In this document: positions 37,006 to 60,154 of the stretch, piece by piece
Position numbering within the stretch: the first letter of the stretch is position 1
Layout: each line of letters starts with the position of its first letter
Source of the DNA: Candidatus Absconditabacterales bacterium
Lineage (GTDB): Bacteria; Patescibacteriota; Gracilibacteria; Absconditabacterales; Absconditicoccaceae
NCBI GenBank assembly: GCA_025057375.1
Contig: JANWWO010000001.1
Coordinates: 1 to 64,000 of the forward strand
Reading direction: 5' to 3'
Length of the DNA: 64,000 nucleotides
Made by a program: the position numbers and the translations under genes
The notes under the pieces: model-generated
Database searches by the model: none
The model's input: only the letters and a program-made list of their open reading frames with translations
What the model was told of the DNA's origin: nothing

Positions 37006-38997
37006 ATGAAAGAAACCCTTCTGACGTTACTTCTTGTTCTCATTATCGATGTTGTATGAGCTCAAAATGTCATTATGAGAGATGATTTTGTACTTGATTT
37101 AGATAGTGGAGCTATCATCCCAAGAGCAGAGTGGGATGCAAAACAATCATCAAGTTGAACAAATATCATAACACAAACAGGAACTACACAACCAACTACG
37201 ACACAAAATACAGCAACAACCCAAAGCATAGAAATCACACACGCTCAAACAACGGGATTAATACAATCATGAAATAATTCTATCACTAGAACTGTCCAAA
37301 CTAGCGAAACAATACAGACCATCCAAAGCACAAACCAAACAGGAACCACACAGTCAACAACTGGATTGATACAATCATCACAATCTCTACAAACAACCAT
37401 ACCAAACATGCAAACGGGAACAAGACCTCTCTTTACTCCTGATCCCAATCGTAGCGAACTAGACAATGCAATCGCATGGATGTACAGCAATGATCTGACC
37501 AAATTTCCAACCAAAGAATCATTTATGCCAGACAATATCATCACCAGAGAACAAATGGCAAAAATGATTTCTCAAGCATATACTGTATTATGATATCCAG
37601 AAAAAAGAGGGAGTAATCCATGTCAATTTGGAGATTTTGACACAGCAGACCCAACGCTACAGCCATTTATTACGCAAAGCTGCCAAAGAGATATCATTGG
37701 GTGATGGTGAGGAAATTTTCATCCTTTTGTCACCTTAACAAGAGCGCAAGCAATCGCGATGATTATAAGAATATTTGAAGGACAAAAATCCGATGAGTCA
37801 TGAGACCCTCGATATCGTAATTATATCGTTAAAGCACAAGCAATGTGACTTACCACACAAGATCACACTGCAAATTTTGATGTCCCTATACCTAGATGAG
37901 ATGTGGCAATTCTTCTCTATCGTTTCAAACAAGCATCAGAAAACACCCTCGCAAGAGATGCCTTAGTTCAAAGACTCAGAACAATTTCTGTACCTGGCAA
38001 CCAAAAAATCGATGCACTGCGTCTGTCTGATAATATTGGACTCCTCACACAAAACGTTGGAATCGGGAATGATCCAGAATTGAGAGAGGCAACATTTCGA
38101 ATGTTCCAACAATGACTCACGACCTATGCACAAGCGGAAGAATTTAGAGCATTTGATCAACTCCAAAGACAAGAGGCAGCAAGGTTTCTCGGTCAATTTC
38201 ATCAACAATTTTTATTGTCATGATGATTGGATACTGTACCAAACTCCCCACAGTGTAGATTTTCTGATCTTGCTGCTGCGAGAGAAGAATTGAGATCGTT
38301 TATTATCTATTCTTGTAATGTGTGAATTTTGAGAGGACAACAATGATTTTTTTCACCAACTCATTCAATGACCAAAGCAGAATTTCTTGCTGCCATGATT
38401 CGTATGCTTGGAGACGCCTTCCCAGAACCAACAATAAGAGCATGACAAGTATGGCGAGAACCATACTTTGAAATATGATTGCAGCTATGACTTGTGAATC
38501 CTATGGATAGGGTAGCATTTGTGAGAAACTACCCAATCACAAGATATGAAGTTGCTGTCATCTTGTATAGATTTCGTATCAAATATAGAATGCTAACCAA
38601 TCTAAATGCAGGCATACTCGAAAATCAACTCCTTGCTCTTGTCGATGAAAATCCCATCACTGTTAATGGTCGTAGAGAAGCCAAAGTCTATATCACGACG
38701 ACCAAACTCGCTGACCAAAATTTTACGGTCTGATTTATTGATCTCATGGACAAAAGATATAAAATCACAAGAGAAAAAGTGGATAGATTTTTTCATAATA
38801 ATTTTGTCTGGTATGGTACAATTATCGACCTAGATACTGACCAACCAATTGGAACAGCAAGTTTTGTGGTCTCCAATAATATCGTCGTCGAAGGAAATAT
38901 AAGACCTCATGGAAATCAAGCAACCTATTATATGATCCGTAGAGCAGAAGGAACGAATGCGTTCTACCTCATGACCGAGTTTACTGACAATCAATAG
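37006..38997 (+). CDS. SLH (S-layer homology) domain protein
   Basis: 663 residues with a signal peptide (MKETLLTLLLVLIIDVVGAQ). After a Thr/Gln-rich linker (residues 40-140) come at least five SLH-like blocks. Examples are ELDNAIAWMYSNDL...NIITREQMAKMISQAY, CQRDIIGW...TLTRAQAIAMIIRIFEG, KAQAMGLTT...PIPRGDVAILLYRFKQ, SCNVGILRG...SMTKAEFLAAMIRMLG, and LQLGLVNP...PITRYEVAVILYRF. SLH domains bind peptidoglycan-linked polymers, so the protein should be held at the cell wall. The C-terminal part has no known domain. It precedes the amidase gene by 55 bp on the same strand. Confidence 0.88.
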
Positions 38998-39052
38998 TCA
39001 TCTGGAGCACGATACAGGTCAGATTCTCTTTTTATCTTTATCGTTATGACCA

Positions 39053-41047
39053 ATGGTTCGTTATCTTGTTGGAATCATCACCATTTTTTTGTGGTCATAT
39101 ACTTTTGCATCAACCATCAATCAAACGTGGGATCTTCCATGAATCACGCTCATAACTCGTGCAGAATGGTGAGCCGATGAACGTTCAAGACTCAGATCAC
39201 ATGCCATTTTTCAAGGTATTATTCGTGCATATGAAGAACGTGAACGTCAACATGCACTCCTAAGACAGACCAATTTTGATGCATGGCTACAAGAAGAGCA
39301 AAAACGTCATGAAGCAAGAAAACGCGAAGATGATAGAAATGCATGGTTACTTCAAAGCTTTAGTGAAAAATTTTCTATCAACAATCGTATTAACAATATC
39401 TTCTGAGAGCCTCTCCGATGGCCCCAAACCTACCATTTCAATAAAACAGAAATCATCATTCATCATACAGCTTGAGAAGTTCCCACAGACCAATCAATTA
39501 CAGATGAAATAGCAGAAATCCAAAGAATTTATCGCTTTCATACACATTCTCGCGCACGATGAGATATTGGATATAACTTTATTATCGGACCAAGTGGAAG
39601 AATTTATGAAGGAAGAGCATGAGGACCAGGTGTCATTTGAGCTCATGCACAATATAATAACACAACAAGTATCGGCATATCGTTGATGGGAAATTTTGAG
39701 GTTCAATCTGTTCCTCAAGCACAATATGATGCATTAGTTCAACTAACGACAGCCCTTGCTCGTTACTACAATATCAATCCCAACGATCAAACAACATATT
39801 TCAAAGCAATAAATAATGCCCCTTTTATCCAACAAAATCGCCATTTTCGTATTGCATGACATCGTGATGCGTGATGGACATCATGCCCAGGGAAATTTTT
39901 GTACGAAAAACTTCCTACACTAAGATCACAAGTTTTAGCAAATCTGGCGGGCCTAGGAGAACCAAGCTGATCAACACATCCCTTACAATGAACGATCAAC
40001 CCACTGACCCTATCGCTCAAACAAAAAAGAGAATTACTCCAAAAAACTGTTCGCCATGTCACACAACAACAGCCACTGACACCGTCAACAGCTCAAATCC
40101 AAAGAAACTCAACAGCACCGCTCATTACATCCCTCCCTGATCTCATAAAAAAACCAGTCTCCGTTCTCCTTCTGGAAGCAAGTACCAGTCTTAATAATAC
40201 ACGGAATATTTCCTGTTCTTCATGCACACTCACGATTAATCAATCCACACTCCCCGCGCCTCGTTCATTCACCATCAGATATAATCCTCAACGTCAACGT
40301 TTTCTCATTAGTCAATGATCAAGACAAAGAGAAATATCATCGCTGACGATTACGACAAATACACAAAAAGAACGCATCATTATAAGTAACTATGGGAGAA
40401 CATCATTCCAATGAATTCCGCGACATTCCTTTTGGGGCTCAATGACTTTTACTATAGGACAACTCCCATCAAACCAACCATCTGGTCAACAGCCTCTCGT
40501 CATCAATACTCTAGATCTTGATCGTTATCTCCTTGGTATTGTAGAAGCAAATGATCAACATGGCTTTGAGTACAATAAGATTATGGCAATCCTAGCCAGA
40601 TCTTATATGCTATATTATCTTGATGATCGCAATCGTCATCCATCCATCCCGGCTAATGCTCCTTACAACGCCATCGATGATCCTGATTATTTCCAGAAAT
40701 TTGTTTGAGCCGGTGTTGTTGATACACTAAAACTTCGACCAAGAGCAGTAGCAGATACCCAATATACAATCATGCACATCAACAATCGTATTGTTCTTTT
40801 CCCCTACTTCTCGTGCACCCCATGATTTACACTGCCCGCATCGTTCAAATGGTGATGGACCGATGCACCGTATCTCAAAATGGTTCTTGATCCAGCACCA
40901 TGTAACGAATTTGTCTGACATGGAGTGTGACTATCATGACAAGGAGCTCGTGCATTATTGAGAATGGGAGTAAACTATCGTGATGTCCTCAGATACTTTT
41001 ATCATGGTGTCCAATTTACTACAACAAATCTCGCAATGAGTCAATAA
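39053..41047 (+). CDS. N-acetylmuramoyl-L-alanine amidase fused to SpoIID/LytB domain
   Basis: 664 residues. A signal peptide (residues 1-21) is followed by a helical, charged region. An Amidase_2/PGRP domain (about residues 130-290) then shows the zinc ligands IIIHHTAG, and GHRDAGWTSCPGK with the final His and Cys, plus GYNFIIGPSGRIYEGR. A SpoIID/LytB domain follows (about residues 480-660): LDRYLLGIVEANDQHGFEYNKIMAILARSY and HGVGLSGQGARALLRMG. Fusing a peptide-stem amidase to SpoIID-type glycan processing gives one protein that can open the wall at two bonds. It is exported. The neighbouring M23, SLH and VanW genes support a wall-remodelling role. Confidence 0.9.
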
Positions 41048-43634: not shown

Positions 43635-43781
43635 TCTTACATCAAAGACAATCTTCTCAATCCTCGGACATCGTCATCAATCTCATGGATCGTTCAACGT
43701 CATAGTTCAAAATCAACGTCAAAAGATTATTTTCTCAGTCAGTTTCCTATTCACCAAAAAATCATTTATTTCACACAGTTG

Positions 43782-45014
43782 ATGACATACATAGCCAAAT
43801 TTTGACACTATATCGACAACACTCTCAAAGCTATTGCTCGCTTTCTGATTACATTCTATCAAAAAACACTCTCTCCTGATACTGGTCTGTTGTCTCTCTT
43901 TTTTCGCCATCGTATCTGTGCTCATCATCCTAGTTGTAGCAATTATTGACTCTTATGTTTCAAAGATTTTACTTTTCTCAAAGCAATAATCATGACAATA
44001 GAAAGAATAACACGCTGTGGCCCAGCAAACACCATATCATATGATCCTCATCGCTTTCGTGTTGCATTTGCTTCATCTGCACCAATTGGTATTCCATTTT
44101 TAGATGCAATTGCAAATCATGAACGTTGCGAACTAATATGTGTAGTCACAATGCCTGACGCACCACAAGGTAGATGAATGACTATCAAACCAAATATTAT
44201 TGCTAGCCATGCAACACAATATATCGATTCCAAACATATCCTGAAACCATCAAAAATCGATCCTGACAAATCATCTGAATGATCAAACTTTGCACAAACA
44301 TTAAAAAACTATGAAATAGATTATCTTATCGTTATTGCTTATGGAAAAATTATTCCTCAAAGCATTCTTGATATACCTAAAATTCTTTCTATTAATGTTC
44401 ATGGATCAATCCTCCCACATTATCGTGGCGCTTCTCCTATCCAACAAGCACTTTTGGATTGATGCAATGAAACAGGAATCACTATTATGAAAATGGAAGC
44501 AGGTCTTGATACCTGACCAATAATGAAAATAAAAAACATCAAACTTACCCCTGTCACGACAGCATTGGATTTGATCAATGAGATGACCAAACATGGACCA
44601 CAGCTACTTATTGATGCAATGATTGAATATCCACGTGGCCATTGTCCTCTCAAAGAACAGGATCATACACAAGCCACATATACTACCAAAATATCCAAAA
44701 AAGAAGGCATTATCAATCCTTTTGCGGACACAATCCAAACAATAATCAGAAAACACAATGCCTACTATCTTTGGCCTAAAATTCGTTTTGAGTATAAAAA
44801 CATATGGCATACGATCGAGACAATAGTTTTTGATGATGAGCTAAGAAACAACAAAAATCATCCTTGATGGCACAATATACTGATAGACCAAAAATGTCGA
44901 AGTTTGTCTTCTTATATCAAACACATCATCATTAAACCAGAAAACAAAAAAGGAATGGCGCGAACAGAATGGACACAATGGATAGAGAGACAATAAAACA
45001 CACACATACAATAG
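43782..45014 (+). CDS. fmt: YidD-Fmt fusion: membrane insertion factor plus methionyl-tRNA formyltransferase
   Basis: 410 residues. Residues about 15-85 are a YidD domain: [27 protein letters not shown], and [15 protein letters not shown] (the family's RCxPxxxGGxDPV end). Directly after, with no stop, [18 protein letters not shown] begins Fmt. It continues with [56 protein letters not shown] (SLLPxYRGAxPI catalytic loop) and [15 protein letters not shown]. Fmt formylates initiator Met-tRNA. The C-terminus is displaced at about 44940: one base less would give [20 protein letters not shown] and a TAA, the expected Fmt end. In the present frame it reads [12 protein letters not shown] and stops at the TAG at 45012. 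Fusion and terminal shift are read directly from the sequence. Confidence 0.8.
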
Positions 45015-45217
45015 CATTGTGTACATATTACACATATTATACACAATCCTCAATACAACAATATTCTCATGTCCTTGGGCTAAAAGGCAAAACAAAGAAA
45101 AACAATTAACGTCATAAACCGCATCGGGAAGATGCTCTTGTCCCATGGAATTACACTTTTTATTGATACAACTTTATGACCAATCCATCAATTGTCATTT
45201 TTTTGGAAACACAAAAA

Positions 45218-45291
45218 TGGGCCTAGTTGGACTTGAACCAACGACCAATCGGTTATGAGCCGACTGCTCTAACCAACTGAGCTATAGGCCC
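45218..45291 (-). tRNA. tRNA-Ile(CAU), likely lysidine-modified (tRNA-Ile2)
   Basis: Cloverleaf on the minus strand: acceptor GGGCCTA/TAGGCCC, D arm with AGCTCAGTTGGTTAGAGC, anticodon loop CTCATAA (CAU), and T arm GGTTCAAGTCC. The anticodon CAU could be Met, but the TTGGTCGTTGG variable and T-arm sequence is that of bacterial tRNA-Ile(CAU), whose C34 is changed to lysidine by TilS so that it reads AUA. The 3' CCA is not encoded. Confidence 0.9.
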
Positions 45292-45327
45292 ATCACACAA
45301 ACAAAATACAATGCATGAAGTATTCTG

Positions 45328-45511: not shown

Positions 45512-48500
45512 ATGCGTTCGACGATCACATTATGGATCAATGCTCAATTCTCTCGTATCACCAGACCTCAAATCTGGGCACTAATCGTTGCGTACTTCCT
45601 TTCCCTCATGCTACAATTTTTTTATCCTATTTATTCCCAACGTGGAAAACAAGAAGGACAGATACCACAAACATCAATTATTGCCGTCATTATCGAACAA
45701 GAACTCTATAATCGTCTTCGTAGACAAGTTGATCGATATACATCCTCCTATATCCAAAGTCGTCTGCCCCATACACGTGCTCTCATCCTTCCTATGGCAT
45801 CATCAGTAATGTCTCGAGAAATCCTTGGTATCATCGAAAATCTCTGGACAGAAAATACCCAAAACACATCATCTCGTCTTGATGGAATCGTCCTGATTGG
45901 TGATATCCCCCTCCCCGTTGTAAATGATAACTGATACATCTTTCCAACTGTCTATCCATACACTGATCTTCTCAAACCAGCATATATCTGGGATAAAAAT
46001 ACACAATTCTTTGAAAAAAATGAACTAACTGACCACACTCCCGAACTATGGCATGGTCGTATCTGATTTGCCAATGACGAAGAGTATGTACGTTATTTTC
46101 GCAAATTGAGACATCATCAAGAAACACCATACCAATGGACTGATCATAGATTCTGGTATGATAATTTTATCCAACTCAAAGAAACGTTTTCTACTCCCTC
46201 ATTTCTGGGGTATATCAATTCCCTCTTCCTCGCAGAAGATATCGCCTATCATAGATTCTCTAATCTCATGATCACTATGCTCATGGGAAGCGTCGAATCA
46301 CAAGTCGATCAAATGTTTTGAAAAGCCCAGGAAAATGCACAAAGAAACAGTGACCGTGTCAGTGCAGAATGATGAGTATTTTGAGAAATTGATGGAGGAG
46401 AACAAGAACAACTATGAGCATTTTGGAAGTTTTTGCAAAGAATTTTGGGAGAAAGAAAAAAAGCACAAACAGAGGCTGCACAAATTGTTGCACAAACACA
46501 AGGAAATAACCCACAATCTGCCTCTTCAGCTGATCAACAAACCAAATCACCCACACTCTTTCTTCCCAAAGCCGTCCAAGAGCTTACCAAAGCATATAAT
46601 GCTGTTGTTTGAGAATGATACCAAACAGCACCACTTGCTGATGTCAGAGCAATGGGGTATCGAACAGGATTTGATTCCCATCGACAAAAAATAATTCATC
46701 AAGATAGTCTCGTTACCAAATCAGCACTCCAAAAGAATCCTCCCCTCCTCACCATGTACAATACAATCCTCGAAAACAGTGTTCTCAGCTATGTCAATGA
46801 CCAAAAGTTTGCTATGAAAATACCAGTCAATCAAAGTTATAGAACAATTAGACACCAAAATATGAATGAAAGAATCTGAATCTGTCCTCTCTGTATCCCA
46901 AGAAACCGATGTGAAAAAACAGAAGACGATCTCTATGAAACGCATTTCTTTGGAACCAAAACTGATGCTCTAACAGGCATAGAATCAATGAGTATCTATC
47001 GTGGACAATTTGTGAACATAACAGGACGAAATACTGCCCAAACCTTTGCTTATGCAACACACCAAAAAAATCTTGCCTGACCAAGTTTGACGACCGATCC
47101 AGCACAGTGAAGTGTTTGAAGAAGTTTGAGTATTTTTTCTACCCAAACACAATCACAAAGGTGATTCAATTATGACCTCGCAGCTCGTGATGCAAAGCAG
47201 TGGGATGAAGAAAGACAATTTACCGCAACAAGAATTTTTTGTGACGACTATTTTTCTATCCTCGGGATTAAAATTTTTTGTAAAAAAAGAGGACGAGAAT
47301 TTATCGAAGAAACCCAAAAAAAAAGAAGAAGAAATAGACAAGCTGATAATCAAGATGGTGACAACAAAGAGTCTCCTGATGAGTTTGCCCAGAGAATTCG
47401 ATGATGATTCTCGCTCATCAATCTCAAATCATGAACAATGCAGATGCAAAATCTCATTCCACAAAATGCACTCTCCCCCCTCCGAGATAGCAAAGGAACA
47501 AGAGCCATTGAGACTGCAAAAACAGGTGCAGACTCGTTTCTCTCCCAACAATATTTTTTGTGAGCAATCCAGAAAACAGATCGTTTCTGAGACTTGACCT
47601 ATAACAAAACATTGATTTTTGATGATATCAAAAAACTAGGAAGAGATACAAAAGGTGAAAATATTGCAAGAGACTATGAAGAACAATATCTCAAACCAAA
47701 TATCAGCATCCTCGCTCCCTACCTCGAAGATTATCTTGCTCCATGACAACCTTATTATACACGCCAGGGCAACAAGATCTTCTTCCCCTTCTCAATAAAA
47801 AACTTTCTCCCACGAGGGTCAGTCGATTTCTTTTCTATTTTTGATGGACAAGTCTATCACAATGACGGTGGAGACAAAAGGCATGTCCCTTTTAGACCTA
47901 CAGAGAGAAGAAATATCTTTGTCAATGACCAAATTGTGCAAAGAAAATGATGAGCACCTGCTGTAGGCAAATGTCTTCTAGAAGGAATCAAACGACAGCA
48001 TGAAACTACCTATCGCTATAAGCTCCTAGACTCTCGTCAATACAATCTTGCTCCTACACCGTCACTTCTCGACCAATTCAGCGTCACAACAGATGATAGA
48101 CCAATAGATAGTATAAGAAATCTCACGTTTCAAGGCATTTGATGAGATATGATTCGTCTCACGATGCCAAACGTCTATGCAATCCCTGTATACAAAAAAG
48201 AAGGCAACTGACTCGTTTTGATGACACGCGAAGAAATCGAACAAAGCATCAGATCAACCCTCATCAACCAAGTCAAAGCATATAATGAACTCCTTGCCTG
48301 ACAACAGGCAAAAGCACCTACATTTTTTTCACAACACAGTCAAGCGTTTACTGAACTTGGAAGAATTGATCCACTTGCAAAACCAAGCCTTGATAATCGT
48401 CCCTATCAACTCTTTCCCGAAACATATCTTATCGACCAACTCAATAGCATCATATGATCATGAGATGTATCCAATACTGATCCTATCAAGACACTTGCTG

Positions 48501-51500
48501 CTATTCTCTATCATCATAACGCACTACGACCTACCAAAATGCAAACAGCAACTATCGAACAAGAACTCGACGCACTCTGGTCACAAAACTTTCTCCCTCA
48601 CAAAATCAAAACAAATCTTGCATACTATCTAACGCAAGATATGACCAACCCAGACAATCCCGACGCAATCCCTGCTCGTGGACTTCCCTGATATCATTCA
48701 GGTGGCTATGAAGCAGCATTTTTAGTAAGTGATGGACTGCTTCGTTTTCCCCAAGTTAAAGAACCACCTCTAATCACGAGAATCCAAAGACAACTTCGTC
48801 TCCCACAACCTTCTATCCCTACCATGACAGCAACCGATCGAGAAGACGAACAACCAAGCTGTGGTAGCCTTGATGAAGCATATGATCTTTTTATCCTAAG
48901 AAAAAGAAGACCATGAGAAATGGATTGGTTCCAAGCCTTCCGTTGTTGGTTAGAAGAAATAAAAAAAAATCCACTCAAGCTCGAATTTAGTTATCAAGAT
49001 GCAGAGGGACCGGTTATTCCTATTTTTGGGAACAATCTACAATCATGGTTTGATAAGTTTAGTCAAATGTATGTCTTTGACGAAACAAACAAAGCAAGCG
49101 AACAATGGAAAAGATACAGTGACCAACGAAGAATTATGATTTTGAGCAATAGACGTGATAGATATATGACTAATCGTCGTCGTCTCGAAGAAGCTAGACA
49201 AAAACAACAAGCATGATCACCACGTCATACCACACAAACAGAGCAAATCAATGACTTGACCACCAAGATCAATCGTATCGAAGAAGAACTTGCACTCCTT
49301 GGTGTAGGGAAAAAAAATCCTGCAACTGACTCACGTCTCACACGTCTTGAACAAAGCGTTTCTGTCTCCATTCAAGGACCAGGCTGACAATGGCTTGTAG
49401 GCAAACCTTTCGGATTCGCAGATCAAGCATATATTCAAATTCAGTCACAATGATCACAAACAGGTGAATTTGAAATACGTATTGCTTCATCAGGAGATAA
49501 CTGTCTGGTAATTGATGGAAATAATTCTTGCACCCGTCCTGTATCTATCGGTCGTTTCCCGCTCCAAGCAGCCAATGTTATTCTTGACAACCAATTACGT
49601 CTTGCAACAAATAAAGCATGATTGATGGGAATTTTTGTGGATATTTGTCTTCCTGGAACAACGCAATGTATCACAACAACCAAACCCATGACGATTGTCC
49701 CTACCGAAGTTGCACGTATCGAATTTCGTTTCCCTCTCCCTTATATAATTGCTGGTGTCACAACGCCTTTTGTGCTAAAGGCATTTGATCCCTATGATAA
49801 TCCCGTCAACCAAACACTGACACAGTGGACTATTCGTGTCAATGAAGGAGACATTGATGGGGTCGCTTTGAGAGAATTTAGGTCATTTGATGAAATTTTT
49901 TCGTATGCATTCGACCCAACCAAAGAACAGGAGGATAAACTTCTCAGTTTCATCGTCCAAGACCAAAATAATCCAAACAAAGCATTCCGTTTTCAAATCC
50001 CACTCTACTACCCTATCATCACAACAACATTCTCAGAAACAACCTACAAGCTTCCCGAATCAATGAATAGTGTCATAAGTGGATGAATGATTGTCCAAAC
50101 CTGATGACGACCCTCCGTTTCTCTTTCTGCTCGTTCCTCTCGCGGGCTTCCCATCCAAGTACCACTGTCACTCACCGCCTGACCTATCCTCAAAGTAGGT
50201 ACTATCATACCCAAATGATCCTGATCACAACTCAAACCTCAATCATCATTAATTCTCTCTGGAGATCAAACACTATATCTCTGGAGTGAATGAATGAAAA
50301 AACTTGATGAAAACCTCGTTATATCCTGGCCCAATAACCAATCACGTACTCAACGTATCATCTTTGAACCAGCATCAGCATATCGTCTTAGCTTTGATCG
50401 TGACACACAAGCAACAGATTTAGGACAATCCTATCATTTCAGTGGGACAGTTCGTGATAGATGGGATAATATCGTCACGACTCCTGTCACACTCACCCTA
50501 GGAACATTAGGCACAGCAAAACTCACACAATCTGACATATCAGACAATTCTGTATCCACCCTCCACCATGCAGCTGTCCCTGATCAATGACACACACAAC
50601 AAATCCAGTCAGTCAATGGATCTTTTTCTACGAAAGTAACAATGACCAACTTATGACCTGCCTATCTATATGCTCTCATACCCAACAAATCGCTCGATGA
50701 CCAAGTTCCTGCTCTTGTATCCCTTCTGTGATCTGCTGATGTTATCCCAAGAATGGGGCTCAATGTCATGTATCTTACCTTGGCAGGAAGCGATCGAGCA
50801 AATTGGCATAATCCTAACTCCACAACCTACAAAGCAACACAGACAATGCTTGCAACATCGTCCAAATTACTGACTATTACAAGCCAATTGACAGATCCAC
50901 GCAACATTCATCAAGCACAAATCCAAATCTTCGATGATGGAAGATATGTTGGTCCAGATCCAATACTAACAGCATGATCAAGCTGACTAATCATGACTAT
51001 TGGGACAAATCAATGGAGGCTCCCACCACTCGCTATAAATAATGAGAAAAATTCGGTCTGACGACAATTCGAACTCAATCCTAGTGATGATCGTCTCCGT
51101 TTGGAAATCACAAATAATGCGCTCCGTATCAATGGTACAGTAGCTTTTGATCCTAGTCAAAATATCATTGATCCACAACTCTCATTTTCGTTTGGAACAA
51201 AAAATCGCTTAGAATGGTTTGTTTCATTTAATAACACAAGAATTTGATCTGTCCGTTTAGTACCATGAACAATGGAACGATGACCACAATGGCAAAGAAC
51301 ACGAGGAGCATGATCAACCAATGTTATATGATGATGGATTCTTCCTGATACATCAACCACTTATCAACACGATTTTCACAACGGACTAGAAGCCATTGCA
51401 GAAAATCCAACACAAGGGAACGCATTCCGTATTGGAGGACAACATCTTTCATCATGGGCTGCAGGAAGCAATGTCTGAGAAGCAACCAAATTTGGGATGA

Positions 51501-54500
51501 CCCCCTTTATGATCAACGACGGAGATCCTACAACAACAAAACATACTAACACAACAAGGCTATTAACCCAACTTGATCAAGATAAACTTCCTCCGTCTAC
51601 ATCACAAGCCAAATCTAATGCAATACAAACAAATACGCAAACATGAAAAAGACAAACACCAACTCCTACCAAACCTATCCCTTTTGATCAAACAGCAGGA
51701 ACAATCTCCTGGAAAAACAGCGAATCTCCTATCATCACGACTCTCATCTGAGATATCAACAACGATGATATTCCTGACCAACTCATTGTGTATCGTAATG
51801 GAAGGGTCCAATGGCTCAAGCAATACAATAATTGACGGACAGATCTTGGTGACCTTATGTTTCTTGCTGACCAAGTCCAAAAAGCATGGCTTGGGGATAT
51901 CAATAGTGACTGATATGCTGATATTATCATCCATACCCAGAGCAATGATCTCAGAGCATACACGAATAAGCGTGGTATTTTTGATGTTGATGGATTTCCG
52001 ATCTGTCTTGATTTGCCTGGACATGAGATTTCTCGTAGACCACAAAATGTCGCCAATGCAAGACAGCTGGAAGTTCGTGATATGGACCTTGATGGCAACC
52101 TAGACATCATTGCACTTGATAGTGAAGGAAGTATAACTATTTGGTATGGAGGAGAAAGAGATGGACACCCAACATATCTTTCTTCCCAATCAACACAATG
52201 TGCTCCCTGACGACAAGAATACTTGATCAAAGAAAAACTCCCGATAACCCAATTTGCTACCGTCATTAACCCAACGCAAAAAGTAGTCGATGAAAGTTTG
52301 ATTCGTTGGACAGGGCTTAGTGAAGAAGAATGATTTGAGGAAGAAGTTAACATCGATCCATGAGCCTTTGAGAATACGTTCACTGATAATACACAGGATA
52401 TGGAAGTCTTTAATTATATCCCTAGACGTGAGGAATCCCTAGTATGGATAATGTATAACCACCCGAAACGATGAAGAATGTTCAGAAAACCGAATGCTTT
52501 AGAATTAACACAGTCTTCTCGTTTACTTCAAGCCTGATTATTAGCAGAATTGCCTTGACTAATGTATTTTTACAGAAGAGCAATAAAATTATTTAGAAAA
52601 TACCATGATCACAAAATTACTCCAGTGGAAAATACTGTTCCAAATCTCAGCAAATTTCCAACCAATGATCTCATCAACCAATCGATGACAACAACAAAAA
52701 GATTTGTACCTGACCCAAGCACGGACATCTATCCCATCGGCGAAACACTTGCTTTTGGAGATATCAGATATAGAGAAATATGATTTGGGTCAAATCAAGA
52801 TCCTGTCCTCGTACACAAAACATATACCGACCTCAATGGATGAGCAATCGCACGAGGCGATAATATTCGCATTACCGTCACAATCGAAGGGAAAACAACC
52901 AAACGTCTCACCTATATCAATCAAGATAAATGACCACGAGCTCCTGATCAATGATCAGGTGTCCAATGACGACATACAGGGAATCTGAATACTGATAGTC
53001 GTCTGATCAAACTTAGCAATCGCGATGATGACTATTCGTTTGTGATAGACAATATCAATATTGGTGATCAACCAGTAACCTTTTCATATACACGTACCTG
53101 GTGGGGCGATATACCCATTGCAAGTTTTACGCTACAAGATAGGAATCGTGACACCTATCCCGACATCGTCGTCTATCCCAAAGATGGTTGTCTTGGCTAT
53201 ATCAATGATTATCTCAATATTGAACAATCACTTCATGGCAAACCAAGAAGAGGCTATAAAAAAGTCCAGCGCGCTGTTGCTGATCCCAAAAATCAAGCAA
53301 TGACAGACCTCCAATCAAATCTTGATTCTTTCCTAGGCAAAACAACCGAAACAATTCAATCTATTATGCAAAGTGGCTCATTGGATATGTTGCCTTGACG
53401 AGATCATATCAAAGAACAGTTCTCACTCCAAACACTCTTTGATAATAATTTTTCGATCATTCAAGGATTTGATACCACTAGCATCGTCGATTCAGTTCTG
53501 TCCCGTGTATGAGTAGACACACAAGACGTAGAAAGAGCCATCCAAAGCGTTCTTGATGGCATGTGTCAATGATTCCGCCTTGGGTCAAAACAGGCAGCCT
53601 GTAAATGACCACCTATCCCATTCAATATGGCATTTCTCAGTCCCGGAAGATACCAAATCTTTGGATGTGCGCTCCCCACTATTATTCCCTGAGTGATAGG
53701 TAACGATAACGGGTTTCCTATTCTTGCGTTTCCTGCAACATTACCAACACCTGTCTGACCTATGCTAGCACCGTTTCCATGGGGAGGAATCCTCAAAATG
53801 CCAGGAATTGATCAGTATGGCTATTTTGGATTTCCTGCACCATCAGGTACGTATCCGTCGATGATTAGAATCTATCTCTCACCAACACTCACAATGGGAC
53901 TAGGGATTGCATTCTGCTTCTGACCACAAAGACCAATGAGCATGATCCCAAGTCCTCTCAGAGATATTGCAGGCAATTGTATCGTTTTTGCCATTCCCTT
54001 TTCCAATACCTGCGATCAATGAGGAGGAGATAACTGACTGCTTGATGAGATTGCACTTGATACCAATACGATTGATGCTTCAAAAGTCCAATGTACCAAT
54101 CAACCACGCCGTCCCAATCGTGTTCCTTTCCCATGAGCAAGGAGTGATGTTTCTTCTAGTCCGACAGTATTGATCGAGGATAAAGAAAAAACACTAGTCA
54201 GGATATTCGGTACTGACTATAGCTTCAAAGATCTGACCAAATGGAATGTTGCCAATGATACTATCTGATTTGATCAAGCTCCAATGGGTGATGGTGGTAT
54301 ATATGGTCCATTTGGTATTGGATTGGTCGAATTTGAGAGAAAACCACTTGCCAGAGCGCAAATCACCGACCCTCTTGCTACGACTCAAGATGTACTTCTT
54401 CGCCCTTGAATTGATATCAAAACAAGAATCGAAGGCTGAATGATGAAAGCAAAAGGCCTTTTTGCCTGTGTTCTCAATAACTGGCTTGATAGGCAAAGTC

Positions 54501-57500
54501 GCTATATCATCAATAATTTGACCAATATGACAATTGGTGTCTATCTTCCAGATATTACGACACTCTTCCAATGATTTGATCAGCTAACTCTCGACAAACT
54601 CAGAACATACCAAAAAGTCGCCAACAATACTCACACCTTTGATCTCAGACGTGAAATAAGTCAAGAATGATGATTTGTGGGCACAATTGACAGCAATGCT
54701 CGTCGTTTTCTCCCTCAAAAAGCTCATTTTGATCATCTTGCCTCATCAATCTCCAATCCTTTTGAGGCAATCCAAAGTCTTTTTTCTGCAGTCCCTCTCA
54801 TTGATGTAGCGACCAAAGATATTGTACTTCAGGTACCCATGCTCACCGCAGATGAAGTCACTAGATACTCATCCTACCTAGAATCCTGGTATAAAAGAAA
54901 TCTTGATATTCTCAACCAATGGAATAGTAAACTTGGTGAAGTATTTGGATTTTGTGGTTATGCATTCCCAGCACTCGAAAGAACACAATTCCCAACTGGC
55001 ATAAAGCCATCGGCATCAGACAATAAAGAAAGTTACAAAAAACTCAAAAAGAGAGCTGCTATCTCTGCTCATGTCTCTGCTCATGCAACCGAAGGACAAA
55101 TTATTTTACTTAATGCAAAAACTCGCATCCAGCTCACCGAACAAGGTGGTAGAGCAAATGCTGGACGCGTCGATAATCTCATTACTCAAGCCAAAAAACA
55201 AGCAACCAAAATCATCAACCAATACCAAAAAGATGAAGAACTCCTGACCGCTATGACAGGACAACTTTCGCAATTGATGAAAATTCTTTGACAACTTGAG
55301 CTTCTTGCCCAACGTTTTGCATGAAATGAAGAAGGAATAACCACACAACTCAGACAAATTTCTGATCAAATGGCAGATCTTGATCAAACTATCCAAACCA
55401 AAACAGCAGAAAAAAGAATACTTCAAAATCAACAGCGTATTACATCCACTCCCTCACAAACTCAACAAACCAGACGAACAGAAAAAATCACACAACTAAC
55501 CAATGAAATTAATAATGCTCAAGCAAAATATGACCAACTCGCACAACAAAGACAAATATTGAGACAAGACCTTGAACTGGATACAATGCTTGCACAACTA
55601 GACGAGAGTATAGCCCTCTTTGAAGGACTAAGAGAAACAGGCACGATGCCACCACAGTGTTTGGATCTTGTGTTTGGATGAGGATTTGGAAAAGAACTTG
55701 GTGCAATACTCAAAGCAGCTCTCGAAGCAGCAGTCATAGGATGATTTGCAGCAGTTTTCAGTCTTCCTCCAATAGAAGGCCTAGATAGTATCCTCGAAAT
55801 GCTTTCCAATGCAGAACTTGCCGTGACAAGAGTCAGAGAAAATATTTTGGTTCTCCAACAATACAAAAAATTCCCGCTTGAACTCGCAAAATGGCTCAAT
55901 ATCACCGATCGTTATCTCAGCGAAGTTGCCGGGATTATCCAAACATTTTTGGGCACCATTGCTCAATGGATGATGAAAAACAGTAGGAGATTTTCGCTCT
56001 GGGTGGATGCCATCGTCATTCTTATCCTCACACTTAAAACACGACAAGTCATTATTAATGTCAGTGTCAATCGACAAAAACAATGCAGCACCTGTTCAAA
56101 TGACAACTATACCTTTTATGGATGTGGATTTTGATTTATCTGTAATTTTATCAATCTCCCCATTTTACCGATCCCACCTCTCAGAATACCAAGCATTTAT
56201 ATCGACCTGTCTCATATTGATGCAAACATTATGGTGATGCTTCCCACCTTCCGTCTCGCTCCAGTAATGCTCTCCCTGCCACAACTTCCAGATCTTCCTC
56301 GTCTTCCACCAGTACTGGCTGGTATCGACATCAATGGAGTCAAAGATCTTGTACTTCTCGCACTTGAACAATTTCTCCAAACAATTGGATTCACTCTTTG
56401 AGCACAATTTGCACAAGATCTCCAACAACTCATCAATGATGCTCTGAGACTTGGGTGAGTTATCAATGAAAATGGAGAACTTGCACTCGACTTTGGTAGT
56501 TTAGGGGGCGTACTTGCTCAATGACTAGAATTTCTCAGAGATATTGACTTGACAAACATTCCTGTCATTCCTGCACCTCCCGTGCTTCCTCCACTCCCCT
56601 CCTTTATCCCATCTGTCACACTCAAACTTCCTGACCTTCCTCCTGCACCCAAAATCCCAAGACTTATTCCCCAGATTGATCTGATTCTTGATATTCTTGA
56701 TTTGGTTGGGAAAATCTATTGCATCATCAAAGGATGAGGAATTTGATTAGTTGCAGAAAAATGAGTCAAATCAAAAATTGAACAAATGACACAAAGAACA
56801 CGGCCAGTCCCTTTCTTTGATTATATGGATCTAACCCGTATCTCATTTTTTCAAGGTGACGTACTCAGAGGATTTGATTACCGTATTGATGCCTATACGC
56901 AATTCAAATTCAACTTTTCGTATATTTATGATATTGTATCATTCTTTGCTGATTATGTCAATGAATTTACCAATGAGCAAATTATGAAACCAGTTAATCA
57001 AACAATTGATTCGTTTTCACAAACGCTCAATAAGCAAGCTCAACAAATCACGGAACCACTCAATCGCAACCTGCAAATAAACATCGTTCCCGAACATATC
57101 ATGAACCAACTCAACCAACAGCAACAACAAAATCAAAATCAAACGGAAACAACACCACAGCCCTCAAGCAATAAATCACCACAGCAGTCTATACCCACGC
57201 CACAGCCAAATGCTCCCCAGTGATTCCTTCACAACCAGTGACTTTCTCCAGCACATCGTGAGACACTTGCATCAACACTGTATGGTGACAGACGAATCGC
57301 AGATAATATGGATATCCCTGATGCACAGAACTTCCTTCGTCGTGGACTTACCACACTTCTCAATCACCACCAAGTCAGAGGCAAGGTCCGTGATACCGTC
57401 AGCACCCTTCTTTCTCTTGCAACCAAAAACTGGTGAGCACAAGGGAATTTCACCGGACTCGCAACAATGGAAACACTCATGAATGACGTCATCAATCAAC

Positions 57501-60154
57501 ACAAAAAAATCGTCACTGACTTGCGTGAACGTGTAGAACATGACTATGACGGACTGATTGAGGAATTGAGAATCAATAACGAACTTGTATTGGTTGCTGA
57601 TACACCACATCTCAAGTCTCAACTTTCAATCCCACTGTGGACAGTCGATGACCAATTTCATAGCCTCACCACATCAATGCGTCATCCCACTCGTGAATTT
57701 GTGGATATACATAAACGTGTTATAGACATCATGCAAGAACCAATCAAAGCAATGAACAATACACCAAGCTTTGATCCCGTTCTCGCACAGGAAATCAACG
57801 AAGAAATGGCTTTTGTATCCTCAGGTATCCAAACAATCAAAAATATTTTTGACTGACAGGCAACACAAGCTGATCGAGATTTTCTCGCACAGATAGACGA
57901 ACCACGCAAATCCAGACCATGAGACCAACCAGCATTATGTAGAATAGACAATGAAGAGTGGGATTGGTTGAGACAAGAGGCAGGATCTGATTCATTCGAT
58001 CGTTCGCAATCTCTCCGTGTGGAAAAATCAGAAATCCCAATCAATGGTTCGCTCCCAAGCAATACTGATATACCAATGTCTCATGAAACATGACACATCC
58101 AAAATACATGAAATCCCCCAGCATCACTACAACAAATCCACTCACATACCAATCCACTCAACACCACGAATCATAGACTTCTTGCCCAAAACATCAATCC
58201 ATCATCAATTGCAACCAATATTGTATCCAATCCTTTGATAACAAATTATATGGACAATGTTGATCTTGCAACATATGTCCAAGGCATCTGGTATCGTGAT
58301 CGTGACCAAGCTACCAATGTCGTCTCATCCATAGACCAAATCAATGCCATCAAAGACAACTATTCCTTTGTCCATCTTGATGAACCAATTTCTCAAGGTA
58401 TTGATTATGCACGTCAAGATCTTCTGATGCACGATGATAAAAGGATATGGCACAAAAAAGCATTAGACGTGACAACACGCAAACCATTCTCAAACACTCG
58501 TCCACAGGATTTCTTTCGTGGTGAGAGATTTGCGATTAATGAAACTGCATGATCACAAGGAAATGCAACACGCTATCGATGGCAAAAAACGCAAAAAAAT
58601 GACTGACACGTTCGTGTATGAGGAGAGAATCTCCGTATTGCATCGAGACACTATATGGTCAAGAATTTTAGGACAATTGGACAACGTTTTGATGAAATTA
58701 CTGTCTGATTTACTGCAAGTACCAAACAAAATGATAATGTTGCAGGCTATCTCATCAGAACAACCAGAAGAGCAGATATTTTTGATACCAAAAAGCAAGT
58801 TTACTCATTCTTTGATCGTCAACGACGTGATCAAACAACACCTATTCAATATGTCCTTATGCTTCCCCTTGAAACGCAACGAGAAAACGGTCGTGTAATT
58901 GTTCCTAATGAACTCAACGTTCGTATTCCAGACGCAATGACAGGAACTATTATCAAAGTCGAATATTTTGATCCAGAGTCTCCAGATCTTACAACATCAC
59001 TCACCAATATGGAAAGAACACGATACTATATGCAAATTGCGTCCCTCATCAACGAAGGAACAGATGAAAAACCCATCTATATCAAAGCATCCAACTGGTC
59101 AAATCAAATTGTCGCTGGACAGCAGATTCTTGCTGATAAAGAACCCCCTATTCCTCAAGTCGTCCTCCATAGAGTAAAAACCAATACTGATATCATGGAA
59201 TGATTCAACCTGGAAGGAACCATCAATACCCACTACCAGATCCGCATCAAACGAGACGATCAATCGGGAATTCTAGAAAACCGAGTTATCGCCACTGGAG
59301 ACCAAAGACAACGATCTGGATCACTCCAAGGTGACACTTTTATTATTGATAGTCCAAGGTTATTTTGGGATGAAGAAATAACAAGAAATTTCCAGATAGG
59401 CGCACTCGATACCCAAGGCAATGTGTGAATAGCAAGCATTAAACTTGAGCTCACTGTTCCCACGATTGATATCGACGATGTATCCGCTACCTGAATGCAA
59501 TCTCGTATTGTCTCCATAATCAGCACCGATATGGATGAAGGAAGTGTCCAATACCAAAGAAAGCGTCGCAATACACGAGAAGTGATGCAAGGAACCAACG
59601 CCCTCCCAAATACACCTTCCCTCTTCCCCCTCACCACACTCCAAACCATCAATACCGGTCAGTGGTTTTCTCTTTCCGACGCAATAGAGTTTTTTGACTC
59701 CCAAGAAAATATCATTGCCAGAATGGATAGCACATATGGAAAAATTGATCTGACTAGTTCGGGTGTCTTCCTTGATCTTGATCTCAGCAGACGTATTCCC
59801 GTCCTCGTAATGAAAAAGCAAGAAACACAACAAGCAATCTTTGATATTTATCTTCAACCCAAAACTATCATAAACGAACCACGTGCAAACAATCCTCGTG
59901 TCTCTATTACCACAATCAACGAACCCAAACTTGCATCATTCCATAATGGTCGATGTGTCAAGATCAATTCCCAACGTTGCGACTTTTTTGTCGCTCCCAG
60001 TGGTCTTATCTATGCTGCTGACAATGCCAATATGCTATTTGAGGGAAGATATAACTTTGACGAGACAAACAACGCAGTTGTCTATACCATCACCAACCGT
60101 GCATGACAAGACCAATTTACAGTGAGTTTTGTGATTGAGGGTATTTTGCAATAA
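45512..60154 (+). CDS. Giant multidomain surface protein (4,880 residues)
   Basis: One open frame of 14,643 bp to TAA 60152; scanning the frame found no earlier TAA or TAG. A membrane helix lies near residues 22-42. Residues 125-210 (RLDGIVLIGDIPLPVV, YPYTDLLKPAY, ELWHGRIGF) look like the C25/gingipain-type protease fold, but I do not see its GHG...C catalytic pair. Long charged and Gln-rich coiled stretches follow. Calcium-binding FG-GAP/VCBS-type repeats appear at residues about 2075-2200 (GDINNDDIPD, GDINSDGYADI, DMDLDGNLDI) and once more near 2545 (DRNRDTYPDI). A hydrophobic, helix-rich zone with a membrane-like segment (WVDAIVILILTL) is near 3500, a Pro-rich segment near 3685-3720, and Gln/Asn-rich tracts near 3865-3905. 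The C-terminus is beta-rich. Expected role: surface attachment or interaction with a host. Function inferred from architecture only. Confidence 0.9.

Follow-up and report, generated by a model that had tools for sequence, protein, structure and literature searches.

In bacteria, genes such as those of IF2 and CheA contain an in-frame internal start from which a short isoform is produced. Isoforms made from an in-frame internal start are also known for the endolysin of phage phi2638A, according to the accessible part of PMC12203907. In E. coli, yidD lies within the gene order rpmH-rnpA-yidD-yidC, as given in the available text of PMC10502375. Moreover, the scarcity of Shine-Dalgarno (SD) sequences and the missing CCUCC core of the anti-SD have already been published for candidate division SR1, two genomes of which appear in a table of PMC10783764 (accessible portion). 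The families of YidD and of methionyl-tRNA formyltransferase (Fmt) are known individually; what appears to be new, as far as our searches reach, is their combination in one gene, its fixation and a putative internal start within it. No account of a YidD-Fmt fusion was found in the literature searched, which largely left out subscription papers; the author of the first-pass annotation of this DNA was likewise aware of none. By term search, the main text of the Vampirococcus lugosii paper (PMC8080830) contains no YidD, YidC, formyltransferase or fusion; in the available text of PMC6851277, the same kind of search returned neither formyltransferase nor YidD, and leaderless, Shine-Dalgarno and translation initiation occurred in its reference list only.

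The window analysed here is a stretch of 64,000 nucleotides from Candidatus Absconditabacterales bacterium (GenBank assembly GCA_025057375.1, contig JANWWO010000001.1). It contains a single gene in which yidD and fmt are joined, with the following parts:

43782..44996, plus strand: fused yidD-fmt open reading frame, 404 residues, 46.1 kDa, translated with table 25, stop TAA at 44994-44996.
43830..44048, plus strand: YidD domain, residues 17-89, with predicted helices at 2-29, 52-62 and 65-77, cysteines 46, 52 and 79, and the closing Asp88-Pro89.
44043..44060, plus strand: junction, residues 88-93, consisting of the YidD Asp-Pro and then 4 residues up to the first Fmt strand.
44055..44993, plus strand: Fmt domain, residues 92-404, with invariant Asn205, His207, Asp243, Arg131 and Gly132.

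The first-pass annotation had proposed that the two genes are joined in frame, and the frame is indeed open for 404 codons from the ATG at 43782 under table 25. Profile searches with this table place YidD (residues 17-89) and Fmt (from residue 92) in one frame with zero stops between them. The end had been set at 45014, which was wrong, being the second in-frame stop, 18 bases beyond the first. The further statement that neither a stop nor a start separates the two parts is correct for the stop, and for a start within the few junction codons, but an in-frame ATG is present at 43992. Whether other copies of yidD or fmt exist in the genome was also checked: the whole window genome has one YidD match and one Formyl_trans_N match, both at 43782-44996, which rules out a separate yidD or fmt elsewhere in it. 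The predicted structure of the full fusion, computed from an alignment in which 9 fusions were combined with 21 unfused Fmts, has a mean pLDDT of 93.6 and a pTM of 0.90. As for the neighbouring coding sequences, a protein of 712 codons that carries Amidase_2 and SpoIID domains is encoded at 38909-41047, and a giant predicted protein, a single frame of 4880 codons under table 25, lies downstream at 45512-60154.

With the standard code, seven TGA codons break the fused frame, and hence the finding of a fusion depends on the genetic code. Two of these codons, at residues 132 and 245, fall in columns with invariant Gly in 23 aligned fusions. The window genome also has a tRNA with anticodon UCA (C18:22343-22416, L208; labelled SeC by ARAGORN), which would fit the decoding of UGA and is a candidate UGA-reading glycine tRNA. 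Together, the invariant Gly columns and this tRNA support the reading of TGA as Gly in this genome. The tRNA survey gave 38 matches, 30 of which were scanned with ARAGORN; among these 30, three CAU tRNAs were found, one of them with a GGG/CCC anticodon stem, which we take to be the mark of an initiator tRNA. A CAU tRNA (45217-45292, minus strand) adjoins the fused gene; it was rejected as an initiator tRNA, its acceptor stem being fully paired and its body resembling an elongator or tRNA-Ile2, and its position beside the fused gene is therefore regarded as chance. Peptide deformylase was detected in 57 of 59 genomes, including the window genome, where it is located on another contig. The deformylase and the initiator-like CAU tRNA form the genomic context of a putative formylation of Met-tRNA(fMet) in this organism.

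The YidD part of the window protein scores 58.1 bits with PF01809 (cut-off 27) and 56.3 bits with TIGR00278 (cut-off 40). Residues C46, P50, C52, S53, R75, C79, D88 and P89 are invariant in all 23 aligned fusions, and the pattern from C46 to P89 was judged to be a mark of the YidD family from the unfused YidDs of sister families. In 11 of 13 close pairs, the dN/dS of the YidD core (residues 13-69) ranges from 0.01 to 0.17, the remaining 2 pairs being synonymously saturated; values of 0.04-0.15 were obtained for Fmt in all 13 pairs. The YidD part is under strong purifying selection. The long N-terminal helix predicted at residues 2-29 may serve as a membrane anchor.

The Fmt part is matched by TIGR00460 over residues 92-342, corresponding to model positions 1 to 244 of 315, with a score of 176.5 bits, which is below the equivalog cut-off of 201.5; this cut-off is reached in 3 of 36 genomes of the order (G018, G022 and G031). 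Formyl_trans_N (PF00551) is found with 112 bits against a cut-off of 26.1. The Fmt core is intact: N205, H207 and D243, which correspond to the Asn-x-His and Asp of this domain that we take to be catalytic, are invariant in 23 of 23 fusions and align with E. coli Fmt. The C-terminal tRNA-binding domain (PF02911) scores 16.0 bits against a cut-off of 21.1 in the window protein, and exceeds the cut-off in 5 of 7 scanned insert-bearing relatives. A fold comparison restricted to residues 89-404 of the predicted model gave a Z of 30.1 and an rmsd of 3.1 over 297 residues with 2fmt, E. coli Fmt bound to tRNA.

Extra sequence inside Fmt was observed in seven genomes of the order, always at one site after about residue 146 (loci L068, L073, L076, L086, L088, L091 and L214). 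The insert is an alpha/beta serine hydrolase in five of them (G007, G016, G030, G033 and G060), a DUF559 domain in G012 and a stretch without domain assignment in G027. Such inserts differ even within one genus code (g13: G012, G060 and G022).

The same architecture, seen at first in the window alone, recurs in its relatives. A YidD match was obtained in 42 of 49 genomes of the order Absconditabacterales (all one family), and an in-frame run from YidD to Fmt is present in 41 of these 42, the other (G002) being cut by a contig end. All 26 genomes with at least 90% completeness and at most 5% contamination carry the fusion. The Fmt catalytic motif is reached in 39 of the 41 fusions, including all 26 good genomes; of the two others, G001 runs into a contig end, and in G016 (65% complete) the frame closes inside the inserted domain. 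Before counting, G002 was left out of the 42, and G001 and G016, having a partial Fmt, were left out of the trees. A small stand-alone YidD with its own stop was seen in none of the 41 genomes (the 42nd is the one cut by a contig end). From the YidD Asp-Pro to the first Fmt strand, the gap is 4 residues in 39 of the 41 genomes and 14 in G010; in G063, where Asn replaces the Asp, the pattern misread the gap as 113 and the real value is 4. The window genome is the only member of its genus in the list of this order. No YidD match was obtained in 7 of the 49 genomes (G015, G019, G028, G034, G061, G065 and G066), which are 65-89% complete. Two of these, G019 and G028, belong to one genus and are 88-89% complete; they have a deformylase and match neither YidD nor Fmt, and a joint loss of both is possible there.

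At least 11 of the 80 named loci listed (L096-L105 and L107) span the fusion. Some of these fusion-bearing records are titled candidate division SR1, Absconditabacterales or Gracilibacteria, and the rest of them have unspecific or apparently mistaken titles. No fusion outside the order was found among the matches listed for 242 genomes of the class (46 from this order and 196 others) and 379 genomes of the phylum, the latter set including only the window genome from this order. Each match listed there either starts at model position 61 or later, YidD occupying approximately positions 10-84, or passes through a stop. Two loci with an early match start outside the order, L142 and L158, were ruled out as fusions and are plain Fmts. 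In the sister families of the class, 19 of 23 genomes have both genes, always apart: 13 pairs lie on different contigs and 6 on one contig at a distance of at least 30 kb (read by eye). In a quick tree, the 39 fused and 19 unfused Fmts form the two sides of one branch with an SH-aLRT of 100. A genuine and old yidD-fmt fusion, fixed in one order, is well supported because there are no separate copies in the window genome, the junction spacing is constant and the YidD part is under strong purifying selection.

From the fused frame, the first-pass annotation had expected a single protein of 45 kDa. The start signals of the order, however, point to an additional free Fmt. Three features in the window are relevant here:

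43765..43768, plus strand: TTTA box of the main start, 17 bases before the first ATG.
43967..43971, plus strand: TTTTA box preceding the internal ATG, within the YidD-coding segment.
43992..43994, plus strand: internal in-frame ATG (Met71), at which a free Fmt (334 residues, 38.0 kDa) is proposed to begin.

Across 12 genomes of the order (the window and L225-L264), TTTA was found at positions -24 to -13 in 210 of 326 starts versus 198 of 4291 in-gene ATGs. A start was counted when an in-frame stop occurred no more than 10 codons before it; the control ATGs lie 30 or more codons into the same mechanically called genes. Motifs resembling SD were not enriched before starts in these 12 genomes, and where the 16S tail was read, in five members of the order (L265-L269), CCTCT, CCTTT or CCACC takes the place of CCTCC. 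The box is weaker in the sister families; in f14, with three genomes counted, it precedes 17 of 46 starts. It is a testable candidate for start marking in bacteria with a decayed anti-SD, and it could improve gene calling in genomes that use code 25.

The internal ATG of the window lies inside the C-terminal part of YidD, 23 codons before the first Fmt strand. An ATG is present within residues 71-87 in 40 of 41 fusions, and the best single column of this stretch has Met in 16 of them; the distance to the first Fmt strand is 8 to 23 codons, and 31 in one genome. Elsewhere, 279 windows of 17 columns contain no majority-Met column; Met occurs there in a median of 4 of 41 genomes and in 20 at best. 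The windows that cover the near-invariant Met236 and Met238 come to 39. When Met was mapped on the Fmt tree, its position class changed at least 10 times and its presence only once, in G059, which is the sole fusion without an internal ATG and also lacks the box. In the matching stretch of unfused sister YidDs, Met occurs in 7 of 20 (1 of the 20 has no motif and was not scored). In tree simulations, the observed 38 of 39 tips were reached in 24 of 4000 runs with pooled Met rates and in 626 of 4000 runs with per-column rates; by the latter value, the ATG's persistence does not reach significance when taken alone. In 40 of 41 genomes, an in-frame start codon has been kept at the domain boundary of the fused gene.

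TTTA precedes 27 of the 40 internal ATGs at -24 to -13, versus 198 of 4291 control ATGs, and 22 of 40 main starts of the fused gene, whose choice is uncertain. Inspection by eye of the 13 internal ATGs without a box in this interval showed TTTA further upstream, at -28 to -25, in 8 cases, and no TTTA in the 30 bases before the other 5. The median start score is -0.8 for internal ATGs, 1.05 for the main starts of the gene, 4.4 for bounded starts and -4.5 for control ATGs. Two positions of the box could be distinguished: before a late ATG, it falls on the codons for residues 76-77, a conserved Val/Ile-Leu pair, and before an early ATG, as in the window, on codons around residues 62-67. Late ATG and late box occur together in 24 genomes (other cells of the cross-count: 4, 1 and 12), early ATG and early box in 9 (other cells: 5, 3 and 24). 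This count uses a fixed frame, in which the window genome is scored as an early ATG without a box; measured from its own ATG, the box is present. Because the genomes are related, correction leaves 3-4 independent contrasts, which are too few to test the association between ATG and box.

At the late box, Leu77 is encoded by TTA in all 25 genomes with Leu at this position, whereas TTA accounts for 27% of Leu codons overall and for 55% in the next best Leu column. On the tree, this codon has changed 0 times, versus 6-16 changes for 21 other Leu columns counted in the same genomes. For 100 columns whose residue is invariant in those genomes, the median is 7 codon changes, with Phe106 likewise at 0 and four Arg/Lys columns at 1. 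The Val/Ile-Leu pair behind the late box is also found in unfused sister YidDs, where the Leu has varied codons. The frozen TTA of Leu77 is the strongest single result for the internal start, although it is not quite unique among the columns. The start signal of the organism stands at the internal codon more often than expected by chance. The expectation of a single 45-kDa product is therefore not well supported, as the internal ATG and a start box at a synonymously frozen codon point to a free Fmt in addition. On the whole, the earlier observation is partly confirmed and its interpretation partly supported.

It is probable, with appreciable room for doubt, that this one gene has two products, the YidD-Fmt fusion and a free Fmt. 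In the ancestor of Absconditabacterales, the stop of yidD would have been lost and the gene joined in frame to fmt, an arrangement that would have been kept ever since. Initiation at the first ATG would give the YidD-Fmt fusion, presumably the sole form in which YidD can be made. Fmt may have retained a start of its own, namely the ATG inside the end of yidD, with a TTTA box before it in most genomes, and this internal ATG would yield a free soluble Fmt able to carry out ordinary cytosolic formylation. Through its YidD part, the full-length form would be located at the membrane, where it may carry out formylation. We infer that translation begins at both ATGs, that each product is stable, and that YidD, anchored through its N-terminal helix, is functional in fused form. 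Formylation at the membrane by an anchored Fmt, as put forward in the first-pass annotation, is a possibility that the sequences neither support nor exclude. The broader proposal of an order-wide dual-product housekeeping gene, with TTTA as a general start signal and an anchored form that would formylate initiator tRNA at insertion sites, is unlikely in our judgement, even if far from negligible.

Several other explanations should be weighed against the two-product reading. Only the full-length protein might be made, YidD anchoring Fmt so that initiator tRNA is formylated beside the insertion machinery. The 4-residue junction in 39 of 41 genomes, the purifying selection on YidD, the confident single structure model with its long helix 2-29, the retention of the fusion without an internal ATG in G059 and the non-significant simulation with per-column Met rates would all be in keeping with this. 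It leaves unexplained, however, the in-frame ATG in 40 of 41 genomes, the start box of the order before 27 of 40 of these ATGs and the Leu codon in the box that shows no synonymous change in 25 genomes. Since constraint on the protein alone does not explain a frozen synonymous codon, an exclusively full-length product is disfavoured, and we consider it rather improbable. The box and ATG could instead represent an internal promoter, so that a separate fmt mRNA with a short leader begins inside yidD. As the products would be the same, this is a variant of the two-product reading, and one that we would expect to hold only with low probability. A box about 20 bases before the ATG could be placed as a -10 element for a short-leader mRNA, and TTTA is frequent at gaps longer than 60 bases, both between divergent genes (70 of 99) and on the same strand (59 of 96). 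On the other hand, it is commonest at same-strand gaps of 11-60 (58 of 67), between genes that likely share a transcript, even though a promoter for each gene is still conceivable, and it is found in 11 of 34 same-strand gaps of at most 10 and in 1 of 7 divergent gaps of at most 60.

An artefact might also be suspected (a misassigned genetic code, a stop lost through sequencing error, or a chimeric contig), given that the frame is open only with TGA as an amino acid and that metagenome assemblies carry errors. This is ruled out by the recurrence of the fusion in 41 of 42 YidD-bearing genomes, single-contig ones (G005, G009 and G026) among them, and in records whose titles name candidate division SR1 or Absconditabacterales; the probability of an artefact is practically nil. 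The fusion may, finally, be functionally neutral, with Fmt as a passenger and no event at the membrane because free Fmt suffices. This is compatible with the two-product reading, in which an internal start would uncouple Fmt from YidD, and it deserves serious consideration, although we lean against it. Neutrality fits poorly with the constant junction length and with the lack of an unfused pair in 42 YidD-bearing genomes (G002 being undecidable). An order-wide fusion, with no unfused pair in the genomes surveyed, is suggestive of a link between the insertion of membrane proteins and the formylation of start tRNA, and the internal start, if used, would illustrate how the cell could tolerate it.

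Compared with the known YidD family (PF01809/TIGR00278), the window domain is alike in scoring above both cut-offs and in keeping the Cys, Pro-x-Cys-Ser, Arg, Cys and Asp-Pro pattern. It differs in having no stop of its own, being found solely as the N-terminal portion of a longer frame, and in its location, as yidC is not beside it but on another contig (C14) of the same genome. Similarly, the Fmt part resembles known Fmts (TIGR00460; E. coli 1fmt/2fmt) in being matched from model position 1, in its 2fmt fold and in the invariant Asn205, His207 and Asp243, whereas it is fused behind YidD and scores below the TIGR00460 and PF02911 cut-offs. Like the SD-scarce bacteria of PMC10783764, this order has no CCTCC in five 16S tails and no enrichment of SD; a TTTA box does not appear in the accessible portion of that account. 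With respect to known internal-start genes, including IF2, CheA and, within the available description, the phi2638A endolysin, yidD-fmt would share the use of one frame with two starts and a shorter product that is a complete domain. It would differ from them in that its start signal is a TTTA box rather than an SD sequence, and in that its long product joins two otherwise separate housekeeping proteins.
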